Of a stretch of DNA of 64,000 nucleotides, positions 8,640-18,616 are shown in pieces (the stretch's first letter is position 1; every line of letters starts with the position of its first letter). A program made the translations under genes and the position numbers. Source of the stretch: Natrinema sp. SYSU A 869 (GTDB lineage Archaea; Halobacteriota; Halobacteria; Halobacteriales; Natrialbaceae). The notes under the pieces were generated by a model. That model was given only the letters and a program-made list of their open reading frames with translations. It did no database searches and had not been told where the DNA came from. The DNA is taken from positions 992,001 to 1,056,000 of the forward strand of contig NZ_CP082249.1 in assembly GCF_019879105.1 (NCBI RefSeq), written 5' to 3'.

Positions 8640-10436
8640 ATGAGTCGAAAGCCCTCCCCTAACGACGGCGTGAGCAGACGGTCGTTTCTGGCTGCCGGTG
8701 TAACCGGGGCGGCCCTCACGATGAGTGGCTGTATTGATCGTGTTCAGAGCGTCGTCGATCAGGACGGAGACGATCAATTCTCGCTGTCCATCACGACGGT
8801 TCCAGCAGACTCGGACCGACAAAACATCCGGATCGCCCGCCGGCTCGAGGCGAACCTCGAGAAGGTGGGTATCGATGTCTCGCTGGATATGCGGTCTCGG
8901 TCCGAGTTACTAGAGACCGTCTTGATCGACCACGACTTCGATTGCTACGTCGGACTCCATCCCGCCGACTACGACCCCGACTTCCTCTACGAGGCCCTCC
9001 ACTCCACGTATGCGAGCGAAGCCGGTCGGCAGAACCCCTTCGGGTTCACCAATATGGCGTTCGATACGCATCTTGAGAACCAGCGGCAAACCGACGGTGA
9101 CGAACGCAAACGACACGTCCAGTCCGTCCTAACGGGACTGGCACAGGCAAAACCGTTCGACCCGATCTGTATTCCCGAGGAACATCGCGTCGCCCGAGCG
9201 AATCGGTTCGACGGCTGGAGCGAGGGCCACCTCGCAACCCGCCACGGCTATCTGGGCCTCGAGCCCGAGGACGATGTCGACCGACTGCACGCGCTCGTGA
9301 CCGACAGTCGGATGACCCGGAACCTCAATCCGCTTTCGGCGACGTTCCGGAACCGCGGGACGACCATCGATCTGCTCTACGACTCTCTGGGGACCGAACA
9401 CGAGGGTGAAGTCAAACCATGGCTCGCCAAGTCGTGGGATTTCCCGGAGGAAACGATGGGTTCGGGCTCCGAGACAGCAGATGGAGAGACGATGCGGACG
9501 GCGACGGTCACACTTCGAGAGGAGTGTCAGTTCCACGACGGTGAACCCGTGACCGCCGAGGACGTCGCCTTCACCTATAAGTTCCTCAGCGATACGTCGT
9601 GGGGTCGGGCACCGGTCGCGTCACCGGCACCGCGGTACCGAGGGTATGCCGACGTGATCAAGGCAGTGACGGTCGACAGCGACCGCGAGCTCACGGTCAC
9701 CGTGACGGGCGGCCAAGAGACTGTCAAGCGGGCGTTTACCGTACCGATTTTGCCCAGACACATCTGGCTCAAACTGATCGATAAGTACGCCACGGGCGAT
9801 GATTTCACTGCACCGCAGGGACGGTGGACAGTCGTCTCCGGAAGCAATATCCCACCCGTCGGCAGCGGCCCGTTCCAATTCGACAGTCGATCCGAAGACG
9901 AGTCCCTCGTCCTCCAGCGCTTCGAGGACCACTTTACGCTTCGGGACGACGTCGAACTCCCCGAACCGACGGTCGAGGAAGTGCAGTTCACCGTCGATCC
10001 CGCGAGCAACTCGTCGATCACTCGAGTCGAAGACGGTGGGGCGGATGTCACGGCGACGATGCTCAGTGCACACTCGGTGCCAGCAATTCCCGACTCGTCG
10101 GAACTCGAGCAGCTCCGGTCCCCGTCGCGAACGTTCTATCATCTCGGATTCAACGTCCGAAACGCACCCTTCAGCAACCCCCACGTCCGCAGGGCGATCA
10201 CGCAGTTACTGGACAAGGAGGCGATCGCGACGGACGTGTTCTACGGGAACGCAACGCCCGTCGCATCGCCGGTGACCGATGAGTGGGTTCCCGAGAGCCT
10301 CGGGTGGGATGGCGACGATCCAGTGACGCCGTTTGCCGGCACTGATGGCGACCTCAATGTCGACGCCGCAAAGGTGGCGTTCGAGCGAGCCGGGTTTCGA
10401 TACGATGATAACGGGCGACTACTTGGAGGCTATTAG
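8640..10436 (+). CDS. Orphan solute-binding lipoprotein, circularly permuted SBP_bac_5 fold
   Basis: 598 residues. Tat motif SRRSFLAAG and lipobox with lipid cysteine C31 predict an exported lipoprotein. The order of the family 5 (peptide/nickel-type) binding-protein parts is reversed: residues about 43-200 match the part normally at the C-terminus (SITTVPADSDRQNIRIARRL, NLEKVGIDVSL, DYDPDFLYEALHS, NPFGFTN), while residues about 212-598 match the normal N-terminal and middle part (LNPL, LLYDSL, CQFHDGEPVTAEDVAFTYKF, GSGPFQFDS, FYHLGFNVRNAPFSN). The protein ends at AFERAGFRYDDNGRL, where a normal member would go on. No permease or ATPase gene is adjacent. A TATA-like GTTATATATC at 8603-8612 fits the ATG at 8640. 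Confidence 0.88.
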   Translation: MSRKPSPNDGVSRRSFLAAGVTGAALTMSGCIDRVQSVVDQDGDDQFSLSITTVPADSDRQNIRIARRLEANLEKVGIDVSLDMRSRSELLETVLIDHDFDCYVGLHPADYDPDFLYEALHSTYASEAGRQNPFGFTNMAFDTHLENQRQTDGDERKRHVQSVLTGLAQAKPFDPICIPEEHRVARANRFDGWSEGHLATRHGYLGLEPEDDVDRLHALVTDSRMTRNLNPLSATFRNRGTTIDLLYDSLGTEHEGEVKPWLAKSWDFPEETMGSGSETADGETMRTATVTLREECQFHDGEPVTAEDVAFTYKFLSDTSWGRAPVASPAPRYRGYADVIKAVTVDSDRELTVTVTGGQETVKRAFTVPILPRHIWLKLIDKYATGDDFTAPQGRWTVVSGSNIPPVGSGPFQFDSRSEDESLVLQRFEDHFTLRDDVELPEPTVEEVQFTVDPASNSSITRVEDGGADVTATMLSAHSVPAIPDSSELEQLRSPSRTFYHLGFNVRNAPFSNPHVRRAITQLLDKEAIATDVFYGNATPVASPVTDEWVPESLGWDGDDPVTPFAGTDGDLNVDAAKVAFERAGFRYDDNGRLLGGY

Positions 10437-10441
10437 GAGCG

Positions 10442-11304
10442 ATGCTCGCCGATGTGCTGATTCAACTCGTCGTCGTGATCGGGTTCCTTATCCCGATCTC
10501 GGTAGCACTCTTCATCGGCCGTGAGCGCCTCGTACAGACGCGGTCGGAGTGGCGAACCCGACTCAAAACGTCAGCACCGGCTATCGCCGTCTTGCTCGTC
10601 GTCTTGTTGATCAATCGCTTCGCCAGACAACGTGCACCGCGGCTCTCCCGAGAGATCGGATACCATCTCACTGCGAGTTTCTACAATATCGAGGGGAGTT
10701 TATCCTGATCTTCAAGTCAATCGCGACCCCAGAGACGACGGCGTATTTCACGACGATCTACGTCTACGGCTACGTCTTCCTGCTCATCTTCCCAGTTATC
10801 GCGTACTTTACACTGCCAGATACGCGACTGTTTCGTCGGTTGTTGGCAGCGTACGCGCTCAACTATGTGATCGGGCTCGTTCTCTATATCTTCGTTATCG
10901 CGTACGGCCCCCGAAACGTGATGCCCGCCGAAGTCGCAGAAAGGATGATTTTTGATACCAATCCACAGTATCAATATCTTACCCGCGAGGTCAACAGTAA
11001 CACTAACGTCTTCCCGTCGCTTCACACCTCGCTCTCGGCGACCGTCGCGACGTTCGCAGCGATAACGCGCTCGGCGTTTCCGAAGTGGTTCCCAGTCGCA
11101 ATCGTGCTGGCGGCCAGCGTCGCGATTTCGACGATGTTCCTCGGAATCCACTGGGGGATCGACGTGATCGCCGGAATGCTTCTCGCAGCCCTCAGTGTCA
11201 TCCTCTCGGATCGACTCGTTGATCGCTGGTCCGTGTCCGAACTCCTCGACGAGCGACTCCAGCAGTTCGAGGACTGGATACCGTGGATGGAACGAAGCGA
11301 GTAA
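10442..11304 (+). pseudogene. PAP2 family membrane phosphatase, interrupted by a one-base frameshift
   Basis: Two frames together form one haloarchaeal PAP2-type protein of about 287 residues. Frame one (10442-10708) gives MLADVLIQLVVVIGFLIPIS to SFYNIEG. The other frame, from about 10697, continues GEFILIFKSIATPETTAYF to the stop at 11302-11304. Adding one G to the GGGG at 10693-10696 joins them cleanly. About six membrane segments are predicted. Catalytic elements are AYGPRN, PSLHTSLS and GIHWGIDVIAG, as in the AUR1/inositolphosphotransferase-like branch of PAP2. It starts 5 bases after the stop of the first binding protein, so co-transcription is likely. A sequencing error is possible. Confidence 0.82.
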
Positions 11305-11462: not shown

Positions 11463-13241
11463 ATGAATAGGAGACGGGCCGCCCCGAATCGAGATAACCG
11501 CGGCGGTGATAGCGGAGCCCTCAGTCGTCGTGCCATGTTAGCAGCGACGGCCGGACTGACCGTCTCGAGCAGCGGCTGTCTCCGCCAGGTTCGGAACATC
11601 GTCAGGTCGGACGACATCAAGCAGCTCTCCGTGACGATCACGACGGTCCCGGCGGACGCGGACAGACAACCCGTTCGAATCGCCCGTCACCTCGAGGAGA
11701 ACCTCGAGGCCGTCGGAGTCGACGTTTCCCTCGACATTCGATCCGACATCGAGTTCCGCCGAGCCGTATTGTACAACCACGAGTTCGATATCTGCATCGG
11801 ACGTCATCCGGGCGGGACCGATCCCGACTTCCTCTACGAGGCGTTGTACTCGCGGTATATCGATGAATCGGGATGGCAGAACCCGTTCGGGTTCACCAAC
11901 CAAAACATCGACGAACTCCTCAAGGACCAGCGCAACGCCGAGGGTGATGCGCGCCGCGAAGCCGTCACAGCAATGCTCGAGGAGATCGCGACCGAACAGC
12001 CGTTCGTTCCGATCTGTATCCCCGAGGAACACCGGGTCGTCAGGACGAATCGGCTCGACGGCTGGAAAGAAGGCCATCTCGCGACACGCCACGGCTATCT
12101 CGGTCTCGAGCCGGCTAACGGCGTCGATACGCTCCGAGTTGCCCACACTGACGCCAGGCTGACGGAGAACCTCAATCCGATCGCGACCGACTACCGTCAT
12201 CGCGGAACGATCACCGATCTATTGTACGACTCGCTGGCGACCCAGAACGGCGACGGCGCTATCCAGCCGTGGCTCGCAGAATCGTGGGAATGGGATGGCC
12301 GGACGGTCGATGTCGTCCTCCGTGATGATTGCGAGTTCCACGACGGGGAGCCGTTGACCGCCGAGGATATTGACTTCACGTATCGGTTCCTCCAGGATAC
12401 CTCGCTTGGTGATCACGACACGGCCTCGCCCGCACCACTGTACCGGGGACAGGTCGACGCCATCGAATCGATCAATATCCACCACGGCCACCGCATCGAA
12501 CTCACGGTTGAAACGTCGCCGGCGGTCGGCGAACGCGCGCTTCTCGTTCCGATACTCCCCGCCCATCTCTGGCGTGATCGGGCGACCGACGTCATGGGAC
12601 CCGGTAGCCCCAGCATTGCTCAAGGGACCACGGAGGCCGTCGTCACGAACAACATCCCGCCGATCGGTAGCGGCCCGTTCCAGTTCGACAGTCGGACCGA
12701 GGGGGCCCAACTGACGCTCGAGCGGTTCGATTCCCACTTCACACGTCGCCCGTCCGTCGATCTCCCGGAACCGACTGTCGACGAGTACTCCGTCGGAATC
12801 CACCCGAGCGGCGACACGGCGGCACAGGTTGTCGAAAACAGTGACGCCGACGTAACGAGTCTCCCGCTTGGCCCCACTGATATCGGCGGTGTCGACACGT
12901 CCGACGACGTACAGTTGCTCGAGTCGCCATCGTGGTCGTTTTACTGTCTTGGATTCAACACCCGCGACGCACCATTTAGCAACTACCGGTTCCGGCGGGT
13001 GATCGCACAGTTACTCGACAAGGAGTGGTTGATTGGCGAGATATTCCACGGCTACGCCAGCCCCGTCGCAACCCCCGTCACCGACGAGTGGGTACCCAAG
13101 AGCCTCGAGTGGGATGGTAGTGACCCCGAAACGCCGTTCATGGGCTCGGAGGGCGAGGTCGACGTCCGCGCAGCGAAGGCGGCGTTCAAAGCTGCCGGCT
13201 TCCGATACGACGACCACGGCCGGCTTCGGGTCAGACAGTAA
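11463..13241 (+). CDS. Second orphan solute-binding lipoprotein, circularly permuted SBP_bac_5 fold
   Basis: 592 residues, a close paralogue of the gene at 8640 over its whole length. SRRAMLAATAG and the lipobox cysteine C39 predict Tat export and lipid anchoring. Residues about 50-210 carry the normally C-terminal part (SVTITTVPADADRQPVRIAR, NLEAVGVDVSLDI, TDPDFLYEALYS, NPFGFTNQNIDELL, PFVPICIPEEHRVVR). Residues about 220-592 carry the normally N-terminal part (LTENLNPI, LLYDSL, CEFHDGEPLTAEDIDFTYRF, IGSGPFQFDSR, WSFYCLGFNTRDAPFSNYRF), ending AAFKAAGFRYDDHGRL. A TATA-like GTTATAT at 11423-11429 precedes the start. The ligand is unknown; no transporter partner is present. Confidence 0.88.
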   Translation: MNRRRAAPNRDNRGGDSGALSRRAMLAATAGLTVSSSGCLRQVRNIVRSDDIKQLSVTITTVPADADRQPVRIARHLEENLEAVGVDVSLDIRSDIEFRRAVLYNHEFDICIGRHPGGTDPDFLYEALYSRYIDESGWQNPFGFTNQNIDELLKDQRNAEGDARREAVTAMLEEIATEQPFVPICIPEEHRVVRTNRLDGWKEGHLATRHGYLGLEPANGVDTLRVAHTDARLTENLNPIATDYRHRGTITDLLYDSLATQNGDGAIQPWLAESWEWDGRTVDVVLRDDCEFHDGEPLTAEDIDFTYRFLQDTSLGDHDTASPAPLYRGQVDAIESINIHHGHRIELTVETSPAVGERALLVPILPAHLWRDRATDVMGPGSPSIAQGTTEAVVTNNIPPIGSGPFQFDSRTEGAQLTLERFDSHFTRRPSVDLPEPTVDEYSVGIHPSGDTAAQVVENSDADVTSLPLGPTDIGGVDTSDDVQLLESPSWSFYCLGFNTRDAPFSNYRFRRVIAQLLDKEWLIGEIFHGYASPVATPVTDEWVPKSLEWDGSDPETPFMGSEGEVDVRAAKAAFKAAGFRYDDHGRLRVRQ

Positions 13242-16369: not shown

Positions 16370-18616
16370 ATGTCGGGTACACACTCCAACGGACGAGCGG
16401 ATTCGACGACGAACGATCGGCGAACGTTTCTGCAGACGATCGGACTAGCCGCGGCGTCGACCGGTCTCGTCGGCACCGCGACCGCGGATCCCGAGTCAGG
16501 CGAATCGACGGTCAATGAACGTGATGCCGACAGAGACCTCGTCGCGCTCACGCACGGCGTCGCCGCGGGCGACGTCACGGCGACGACGGCGACGATCTGG
16601 GGACGTGCGGATGGCGACGCGACCATCCATATCGCGTACGGCCACGACGGGTCGTTCGACGATGTCGGCTACGATCGAACGACGGTCGACCCCGAGACCG
16701 ACTACACCGGCCGCGTCCGACTCGAGTTCCTCGAGTCCGGGACCCGGTATCGGTACCACGTCTGGGCTACGCGGTCTGAGACGGCGTATCGAACACTGCG
16801 CGACGGAGACGACGGTAACGGCGCTCGAGGCCGAGACGGTGGACGGGAACCCGACTCGGACGGGGCAGGTAAAAACGGCCGCGGACCGCGCGAAGACGAC
16901 TCTCTCGAGACGGGGCGCGGCCCCGGTGAGAATCCGGAACGCGGCGGTCAAGGCGGAAACGGGCCGGCCGACGGCGACGTTCCCGACGATCTGATCCCCA
17001 ATGTGGTCGAAAGCGGGACCTTCGTCACCGCACCGGCCCCTGACGACGAAGCGAGCGTCACCTTCGCCTGGAGCGGCGACACGTGGGGCTACGGTGACGA
17101 TCCTATCGAGCCGCCGTTCCCGGGATTGCGGACGATCGCGGAGCGCGAGCCGGACTTCTTCCTGTATCACGGCGACACGATCTACGCTGACGCGCAGACG
17201 CCGGCCGGGAAGATCACTGAGGATACGCCGATCGACGACGCCCTCGAGATCTATCGGGACAAGTACAAGGAGATGCGCGATCCGCCAGAAGCGGTCGCAG
17301 AGCGGACGAATTTGCGGGAATTGCTCGAGACGACGTCGGTGTATACCGTCTGGGACGACCACGAGGTCATCAACAACTTCGCGGGGCCAATCGAGCCGCT
17401 GATGCCCGAGGGTCGGCGGGCCTTCCGCGAGTACTGGCCGCTCGACCGGGACGACGGGGCCGATCCCGGCGAGTCAAATCGGTTCTACGACTCGTTCCGC
17501 TGGGGGAAACACGTCGAGTTGTTCGTCATCGACACCCGCCAGTACCGCGATCCGAACGTCGAACTCGACTCGAAGACGCTGCTCGGCGAGGAGCAACTCG
17601 AGTGGCTGAAAGGTGCGCTCGCCGGCTCCGACGCGACCTGGAAGGTCCTCGCCTCGCCGGCCCCGCTTGGCTATCCGTCGGACTCGTGGGCGACGCCGGC
17701 CGATCGAACCGGCTACGAGGCGGAACTGCTCGAGGTCGTCGAGCACGTCCGGACGGAACCGGTCTCGAACCTGGTCGTCGTCGCCGGCGATGTTCACAAG
17801 TCGGTCGTGGGCGCGTTCGATCCGGACGACGACGGCGAGTTCGAGTTCTTTGAGGCCATCGCTGGACCACTGGGCGCGCCGGCGGGCGAACCCGACGACC
17901 TCTATCCGGCGCTGAACCCGACGGAGTTCTTCGCTAAGGGCGAGTACGCCAACTTCGGCACCGTCGATGTCGACGAATCGGGTGAGACCCTGACGATCGG
18001 CATCTACGACGAACAGGGAACTGAACAGTTCACGAAGACGATTCACGCTGACGATATCGACGCCGGTACCGGTCCCGAGTCGGTCGACCGCGTCGAGAGC
18101 ACGTTTGACGAGGACGGCGACGGCTGGCTCATCTCGCAGAACGGAGGGAGCAATCATCCGGTCTACCGCGAGAGCGGCGGCAACTCCGGCGGCCACGTCA
18201 GCGACGAGGAAAATCAGGGCGGAGTCGCTTGGTACTATCAAGCGCCGTTCAAGTTCCTCGGCGACCGCGAGGAGTTCTACGGCGGTTCCCTCTCCTTCGA
18301 CGTTCGGCAGGTCCAGATCGACCGCCAGTTCGACGCCGAACCGGTCGAAGGCGGTGACGTTCTGCTCGCAAACGGTGACACGAAACTCGTCTACGAGTTC
18401 CGCGGCCCCGAGAGCACGCCGGGCGAGGAGTGGACCGACTTCGAGGTGCCGCTTTCGGCCGACGCGACCTGGATCAATCTGACGAGCCAAGAGCTACTTG
18501 CCACCGAAGAGCGGCTCCGAGAGGTCCTTGGTAATCTCGAGGCCCTCCGAATTCGCGGCGAGTACCGGTCAGGCGACGACACGAGCTACCTTGACAACGT
18601 CGTCCTCTCGAGATAG
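16370..18616 (+). CDS. PhoD-type alkaline phosphatase with C-terminal laminin-B-like domain
   Basis: 748 residues. Tat signal DRRTFLQTIGLAAAST (RR at residues 17-18). Residues about 50-140 form the N-terminal Ig-like PhoD domain (VAAGDVTATTATIWGRADGD). A Gly/Asn/Arg-rich linker (about 145-205) precedes the metallophosphatase core: FAWSGDTWGYGDD, FFLYHGDTIYAD, TVWDDHEVINNF, VIDTRQYRDP, LVVVAGDVHKSVVG. Residues about 575-748 (DEDGDGWLISQNGGS, GGNSGGHVS, APFKFLGDREEFYGGSLSFD, SYLDNVVLSR) match the laminin IV/B pattern, perhaps a glycan-binding module. It would be exported folded and release phosphate from organic phosphates. The combination is unusual. Confidence 0.9.
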   Translation: MSGTHSNGRADSTTNDRRTFLQTIGLAAASTGLVGTATADPESGESTVNERDADRDLVALTHGVAAGDVTATTATIWGRADGDATIHIAYGHDGSFDDVGYDRTTVDPETDYTGRVRLEFLESGTRYRYHVWATRSETAYRTLRDGDDGNGARGRDGGREPDSDGAGKNGRGPREDDSLETGRGPGENPERGGQGGNGPADGDVPDDLIPNVVESGTFVTAPAPDDEASVTFAWSGDTWGYGDDPIEPPFPGLRTIAEREPDFFLYHGDTIYADAQTPAGKITEDTPIDDALEIYRDKYKEMRDPPEAVAERTNLRELLETTSVYTVWDDHEVINNFAGPIEPLMPEGRRAFREYWPLDRDDGADPGESNRFYDSFRWGKHVELFVIDTRQYRDPNVELDSKTLLGEEQLEWLKGALAGSDATWKVLASPAPLGYPSDSWATPADRTGYEAELLEVVEHVRTEPVSNLVVVAGDVHKSVVGAFDPDDDGEFEFFEAIAGPLGAPAGEPDDLYPALNPTEFFAKGEYANFGTVDVDESGETLTIGIYDEQGTEQFTKTIHADDIDAGTGPESVDRVESTFDEDGDGWLISQNGGSNHPVYRESGGNSGGHVSDEENQGGVAWYYQAPFKFLGDREEFYGGSLSFDVRQVQIDRQFDAEPVEGGDVLLANGDTKLVYEFRGPESTPGEEWTDFEVPLSADATWINLTSQELLATEERLREVLGNLEALRIRGEYRSGDDTSYLDNVVLSR

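Follow-up and report, generated by a model that had tools for sequence, protein, structure and literature searches.

Permuted binding proteins are already known in a cluster other than the one considered here. TpMglB-2 (Tp0684) of Treponema pallidum, a 'type Ic / cluster Bc' protein, is a natural circularly permuted binding protein of solved structure, and this tethered lipoprotein still binds glucose and changes conformation (PMC4990184). The circular-permutation family reported with CPSARST joins glycine betaine- and molybdate-binding proteins with CysB (PMC2395249); it resembles the protein described below in that the permutation occurs among bilobed binding proteins, but its members are distant families of less than 24% identity, are not SBP_bac_5 proteins and do not stand within orthologous operons. 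The stretch of DNA analysed here (the window, 64,000 nucleotides from Natrinema sp. SYSU A 869) encodes two binding proteins (SBPs) that are very probably circularly permuted. They differ from TpMglB-2, which belongs to cluster B (MglB), is about 370 amino acids long, has a different lobe permuted and arose by an unrelated event; the Pfam and PDB matches of the window SBPs are all to family 5, and none is to MglB or cluster B. The likeness to SBP_bac_5, or cluster C (DppA, OppA, AppA, NikA, HbpA), lies in the profile match (E 1.7e-50 for copy 1), the motifs and the character of an extracytoplasmic lipoprotein, and groups B, C and much of group A (defined below) also head ABC operons. Unlike those proteins, the window SBPs have the parts of the chain swapped, with the break between AppA residues 345 and 356 and the predicted lipid anchor on the other lobe, and no PDB entry among the matches listed is collinear with the permuted chain. 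A search of the open-access literature (subscription papers were outside its scope) returned no paper on permutation in family 5 or cluster C, and the earlier note on this DNA likewise knew of no such description for SBP_bac_5. The recurrence of the permutation is the surprising part.

Order of the parts in the window proteins

The features of the locus are collected in Table 1. Both SBPs open with twin-arginine lipoprotein signals (RRSFLAAGVTGAALTMSGC and RRAMLAATAGLTVSSSGC) that were read from the sequence. The N-terminus of copy 1 (MSRKPSPND...TMSGC31) combines a Tat motif with a lipobox; Pfam TAT_signal reaches only E 0.2 on this protein, the export signal being read from RRSFLAAG...SGC, and the RR and Cys of the signal are invariant in an alignment of 18 relatives.

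Table 1. Features of the permuted SBP locus, in positions of the window
Feature	Position	Strand	Remarks
Copy 1, circularly permuted SBP_bac_5 protein, predicted lipoprotein	8640..10436	+	598 aa; ATG at 8640
Predicted Tat signal peptide and lipobox (RRSFLAAG...TMSGC, Cys31)	8640..8732	+	Read from sequence
Later part of C-terminal lobe and the chain's return, aa 44–208 (C-terminal end in canonical members)	8769..9263	+	Aligns to AppA 350–501, 352–501
Linker PEDDVDR, aa 209–215, from old C-terminus to old mature N-terminus	9264..9284	+	A2 profile against 1xoc, and alignment
Ancestral N-terminal half: LNPL first strand, domain II, GSGPFQF and first ~100 residues of C-terminal lobe; ends in loop after AGFRYDDNG	9285..10433	+	PF00496 profile 1–284; AppA 18–345
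PAP2_3-type membrane phosphatase gene	10442..11304	+	Start 5 bp past SBP stop; two frames here, intact in relatives
Copy 2, circularly permuted SBP_bac_5 protein, predicted lipoprotein, break point as in copy 1	11463..13241	+	592 aa; 54% identical to copy 1

Family membership is clear from the PF00496 (SBP_bac_5) scores of the two proteins, which at 172.6 and 156 bits exceed the curated cut-off of 32.4. In copy 1 the match places aa 257–592 on profile positions 1–284, and in copy 2 aa 267–585 fall on positions 2–283. The profile end absent from the copy 1 match, 284–360, was located upstream, at window positions 8772–8999 (E 9e-4 on the single sequence), so that copy 1 does not follow the profile collinearly and 284–360 precedes 1–284. 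The motifs are arranged in the same way, with NLEKVGIDVSL and DPDFLYEALHS first, LNPL, FHDGEPVTAEDVAF and GSGPFQF later, and the chain ending in ...AGFRYDDNGRLLGGY. When copy 1 was compared by phmmer with AppA (1xoc), aa 289–540 matched chain residues 83–307 and aa 36–192 matched residues 350–501. A profile of twelve permuted proteins extended these stretches to 223–552 on chain 18–345 (224 bits) and 50–203 on chain 356–502 (76 bits), which places the break between AppA residues 345 and 356. Among the best 60 PDB matches listed for this profile, no best stretch covered both parts. With a profile of the window's clade, the best 5 PDB matches, viewed residue by residue, were all in reversed order, the N-terminal stretch often being weak. 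The site of the linker was found with the A2 profile of the permuted family against 1xoc, in which one stretch stops at chain residue 502 and the other starts at 18.

Native and rotated chains were then scored with an HMM built from canonical proteins only. Rotation of copy 1 at about aa 220 raised its score from 150 bits (profile 50–366) to 218 bits as a single match (51–525), and copy 2 rose from 170 to 231 bits. Gains were also obtained for an alphaproteobacterial member (251 to 357 bits), L145 of group B (300 to 436 bits) and L159 of group C (210 to 300 bits), and the canonical control L155 did not gain in score. AlphaFold run on 18 close sequences returned a mean pLDDT of 43 for the full-length protein; for its N-terminal 172 aa the value was 48, and both models were of too low a quality for comparison by fold. 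Each ancestral part is present once, in swapped order, with the old termini joined and the new termini at one site, and we put the probability that the window protein is a circular permutant of a DppA/OppA/NikA-type binding protein (SBP_bac_5, SBP cluster C) at roughly 90%.

The earlier note had placed text of the C-terminal lobe ahead of the N-terminal part, and PF00496, phmmer on AppA and the PDB alignments all bear this out. It had proposed circular permutation, with the cut in the loop after AGY(K)DG; permutation, with the chain opened behind AGF(R)YDDNG, is still the best explanation, both halves being needed for one full family match, and the profile search with the halves in either order that it had suggested yields one continuous match after rotation. 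Its statement that the chain ends exactly at the entrance to the lobe is slightly off: the chain does end in the loop after AGFRYDDNG, but the lobe's opening ~100 residues (SNPHVRRAITQLLDK...) remain C-terminal, so that the break lies inside the lobe, about 100 residues past what we take, from general knowledge of the DppA/OppA domain limits, to be its start.

Groups A, B and C and the number of origins

The permuted proteins were divided into group A, the window type (the window's clade, ABC-linked haloarchaeal and bacterial members), group B, the type of Natrinema L081, and group C (L156, L159, L167 and L168). The PF00496 match ends at profile positions 284–286 in group A, 257 in group B and 275 in group C, and at 339–365 in the canonical L155 and L150; the breaks of groups C and B therefore lie 10 and 28 Pfam positions earlier than that of group A. 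Group B consists of L081 in the window's genome and its orthologues, which come from four further genomes of this genus. The L081 chain starts with the helix GPAEELIQEGF. Its identity to L150, a canonical relative of the group, amounts to 47% for one half of the chain and 36% for the other half. The canonical relatives of group C include L153–L155, L157 and others, and the closest pairs of permuted and canonical orthologues are 55–65% identical in both halves; L159 246–659, for example, corresponds to L157 58–469 at 64%, and L159 58–239 to L157 474–655 at 65%. The join of group C, ...VDREN-AAGDSDLSDLSEGG..., runs from the old C-terminus (WLDREE) through a few residues to the old mature N-terminus (DLQEGG). 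The operon is the same whether the group C gene in it is permuted or canonical, and the matching permeases and ATPases are mostly 65–80% identical. Orthologous Opp-type operons of Halobacteria with the binding protein permuted or canonical are also seen in L175–L178 versus L179–L182.

That the C-terminal lobe and the N-terminal half derive from different paralogues is unlikely. Acquisition from another gene was considered by the authors of the TpMglB-2 study (PMC4990184), and the halves of group A proteins are too diverged for comparison, but in proteins of groups B and C the two halves point to the same canonical relatives. A single ancient permutation, from which canonical members were re-formed by reversion, would agree with the position of the three breaks within 28 Pfam positions of each other; this is quite unlikely, as the breaks are three different ones and reversion requires more events than gain. 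In a tree for which the canonical chains had been rotated into register, canonical clades enclose groups B and C (SH-aLRT 97–100). The AU test rejects one clade of all permuted proteins (p=0.000275) as well as a clade of B and C (p=1e-52); group C alone as a clade is not rejected (p=0.42), nor is group A alone, which is slightly better than the free tree. Because one clade is rejected for all permuted proteins and for B and C together, and because B and C branch within canonical clades, these comparisons show, at the level of sequence, that SBP_bac_5 was permuted at least three independent times in salt-loving archaea, at nearly one point of the chain (Pfam ~285, ~257 and ~275), a count that rests on the two nested groups and two AU tests and on a tree made by a quick method with long branches.

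The N-terminal 170 residues could instead be an unrelated or extra domain on an SBP_bac_5 protein with a lost or divergent C-terminal lobe, as the weak N-terminal PF00496 match of the single sequence would allow. This is very improbable, since the family profile aligns the N-terminal piece to AppA from residue 356, continuing the stretch that had ended at 345, and since the two group C pieces together account for both halves of a single canonical protein, by which the extra domain is refuted in that group. The earlier note had named a separate N-terminal domain together with a complete C-terminal lobe as the finding that would speak against permutation, and the chain holds no second C-terminal lobe.

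Distribution and genomic setting

An error of assembly, frameshift or annotation at the locus, for which two frameshifted genes, nearby or related, in this genome could be cited (the PAP2 gene, at ~10690, and L080, in its signal-peptide part), is practically negligible as an explanation and already refuted, as the permuted frame is open for 598 codons and recurs in copy 2, in all 28 other genomes of the same genus and in many other Halobacteria searched. Among the genomes of relatives, 48 of 61 contained a match at E<=1e-20. In the loci examined, 124 of 155 SBP ORFs are permuted with the shared break and, by the same test, 16 are canonical with the stretches reversed; the count is partly redundant, many genes being present in two loci, and the 124 include L081-type proteins, whose break is slightly earlier. 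Dozens of homologues thus keep one break point, a comparison that the earlier note had proposed from a single member; copy 2, the wide distribution, the PAP2 linkage and the recurrence of the permutation go beyond that note. By Pfam, the window's genome has 14 SBP_bac_5 genes, of which four are permuted (the two in the window, L080 and L081) and ten canonical. When 247 genomes of the phylum were surveyed with the A2 profile at the strict threshold of E<=1e-80, with five candidates scored per genome, the listed matches were confined to the window's own order. Permuted homologues were also read as sequence on alphaproteobacterial plasmids of Nitratireductor, Ketogulonicigenium, Roseomonas, Maritalea and Neorhizobium, and one tblastn match was obtained in Microvirga, the bacterial distribution being known from plasmids only. 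Permutation at the window-type break is an old trait, present across Halobacteria and in Alphaproteobacteria. A Fusobacterium match that looked permuted in a joined table proved canonical, and viral contigs searched for further sequences gave nothing useful. A conserved tail of 25–30 aa, GEAWxAFVERxxxGxxxxRxxLxQxDFS, extends past the usual break in L132, L138, L125, L126 and L080; a leftover duplicated segment was sought in these L080-type tails, and no match to canonical proteins was obtained.

The wider permuted trait mostly sits in complete Opp/Dpp-type ABC operons. Permease genes, and mostly ATPase genes as well, follow the ABC-linked permuted members (e.g., L065, L067, L069, L071, L080, L121, L122 and L124); Opp/Dpp permease and ATPase neighbours are present for the ABC-linked relatives in group A and for groups B and C. 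Annotated ABC permease and ATPase genes adjoin the permuted gene in Nitratireductor, Ketogulonicigenium, Roseomonas and Maritalea, where in the last the gene next to the SBP is the ATPase; the Neorhizobium record is unannotated. Alphaproteobacterial operons with a permuted SBP (L102, L103 and L120) adjoin genes for M28 peptidase and hydantoinase/oxoprolinase, which hints at peptides or pyroglutamate-like compounds as ligands. No Opp/Dpp permease or ATPase genes neighbour the window SBPs, as all 61 BPD_transp_1 permeases of this genome are encoded outside the window. The gene order in Natrinema is SBP1-PAP2-SBP2. A PAP2_3 gene starts no more than 230 bp downstream of 70 permuted ORFs, 35 of them with the start 2 bp past the stop and 13 with a one-base overlap (the loci are partly redundant), and in the window's clade only SBP2, L052 and L056 lack it downstream, L063 stopping at a contig end. 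The link reaches almost to the base of this clade, and PAP2_3 was found beside none of the ABC-linked permuted members. The PAP2_3 frame of the window shifts near 10690–10697, at a run of G, and L080 (5374–7283; C3:2768.4–2770.3 kb in the window's genome), a permuted, ABC-linked SBP, has its signal-peptide part in another frame, which together suggests indel errors in the assembly. The window also encodes a PhoD-like phosphatase with a C-terminal Laminin_B domain (16370–18613).

Proposed mechanism and function

Judging from its motif, the signal peptide of copy 1 would be cleaved and Cys31 lipid-anchored. From there the chain is predicted to form the second part of the C-terminal lobe, return to domain I, pass through a short linker in place of the old termini, and then build domains I and II and finally the first part of the C-terminal lobe. 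A few residues link the ancestral N- and C-termini, and the new termini fall within the C-terminal lobe, in the loop that connects the AxxLLxxAGY helix to the strand after it. As the termini have moved, the signal peptide and lipid anchor would sit on the C-terminal lobe and not on domain I. The fold itself is presumably an unchanged, ordinary Venus-flytrap that closes on a peptide-like ligand. Retention of binding-protein function is argued for by the position of most of the ABC-linked group A members examined, and of groups B and C, at the head of binding-protein/permease/ATPase operons, and by the use of either order in orthologous operons. For the window's clade, the linkage gives about even odds that the protein is a binding lipoprotein which, on the outside of the membrane, works with a co-transcribed PAP2 phosphatase.

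Circular permutation usually proceeds by duplication, fusion and trimming. The permuted genes probably took this course, a tandem copy being fused in frame and the product then trimmed at its two ends; no duplication intermediate was found. It is conceivable, if doubtful, that the loops around the AxxLLxxAGY helix are a hot spot of permutation that was reused because ligand presentation is altered once the anchor sits on the C-terminal lobe and no longer on domain I, and that the window's clade left ABC transport to work with PAP2. Relocation of the anchor as the benefit of permutation is only a suggestion, and it cannot explain all cases, because the alphaproteobacterial permuted members have apparently ordinary secretory signals that lack a lipobox.

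Large transport proteins with two lobes are seldom found circularly permuted in nature, and the comparison is usually between a single old case and a relative that is very distant. Profile-based annotation names all of the proteins described here 'ABC transporter substrate-binding protein' and overlooks the rearrangement. In many Halobacteria the PAP2-linked clade forms a conserved, uncharacterised module, and the orthologous operons with either order provide natural pairs in which the cost, benefit and mechanism of permutation are open to test.
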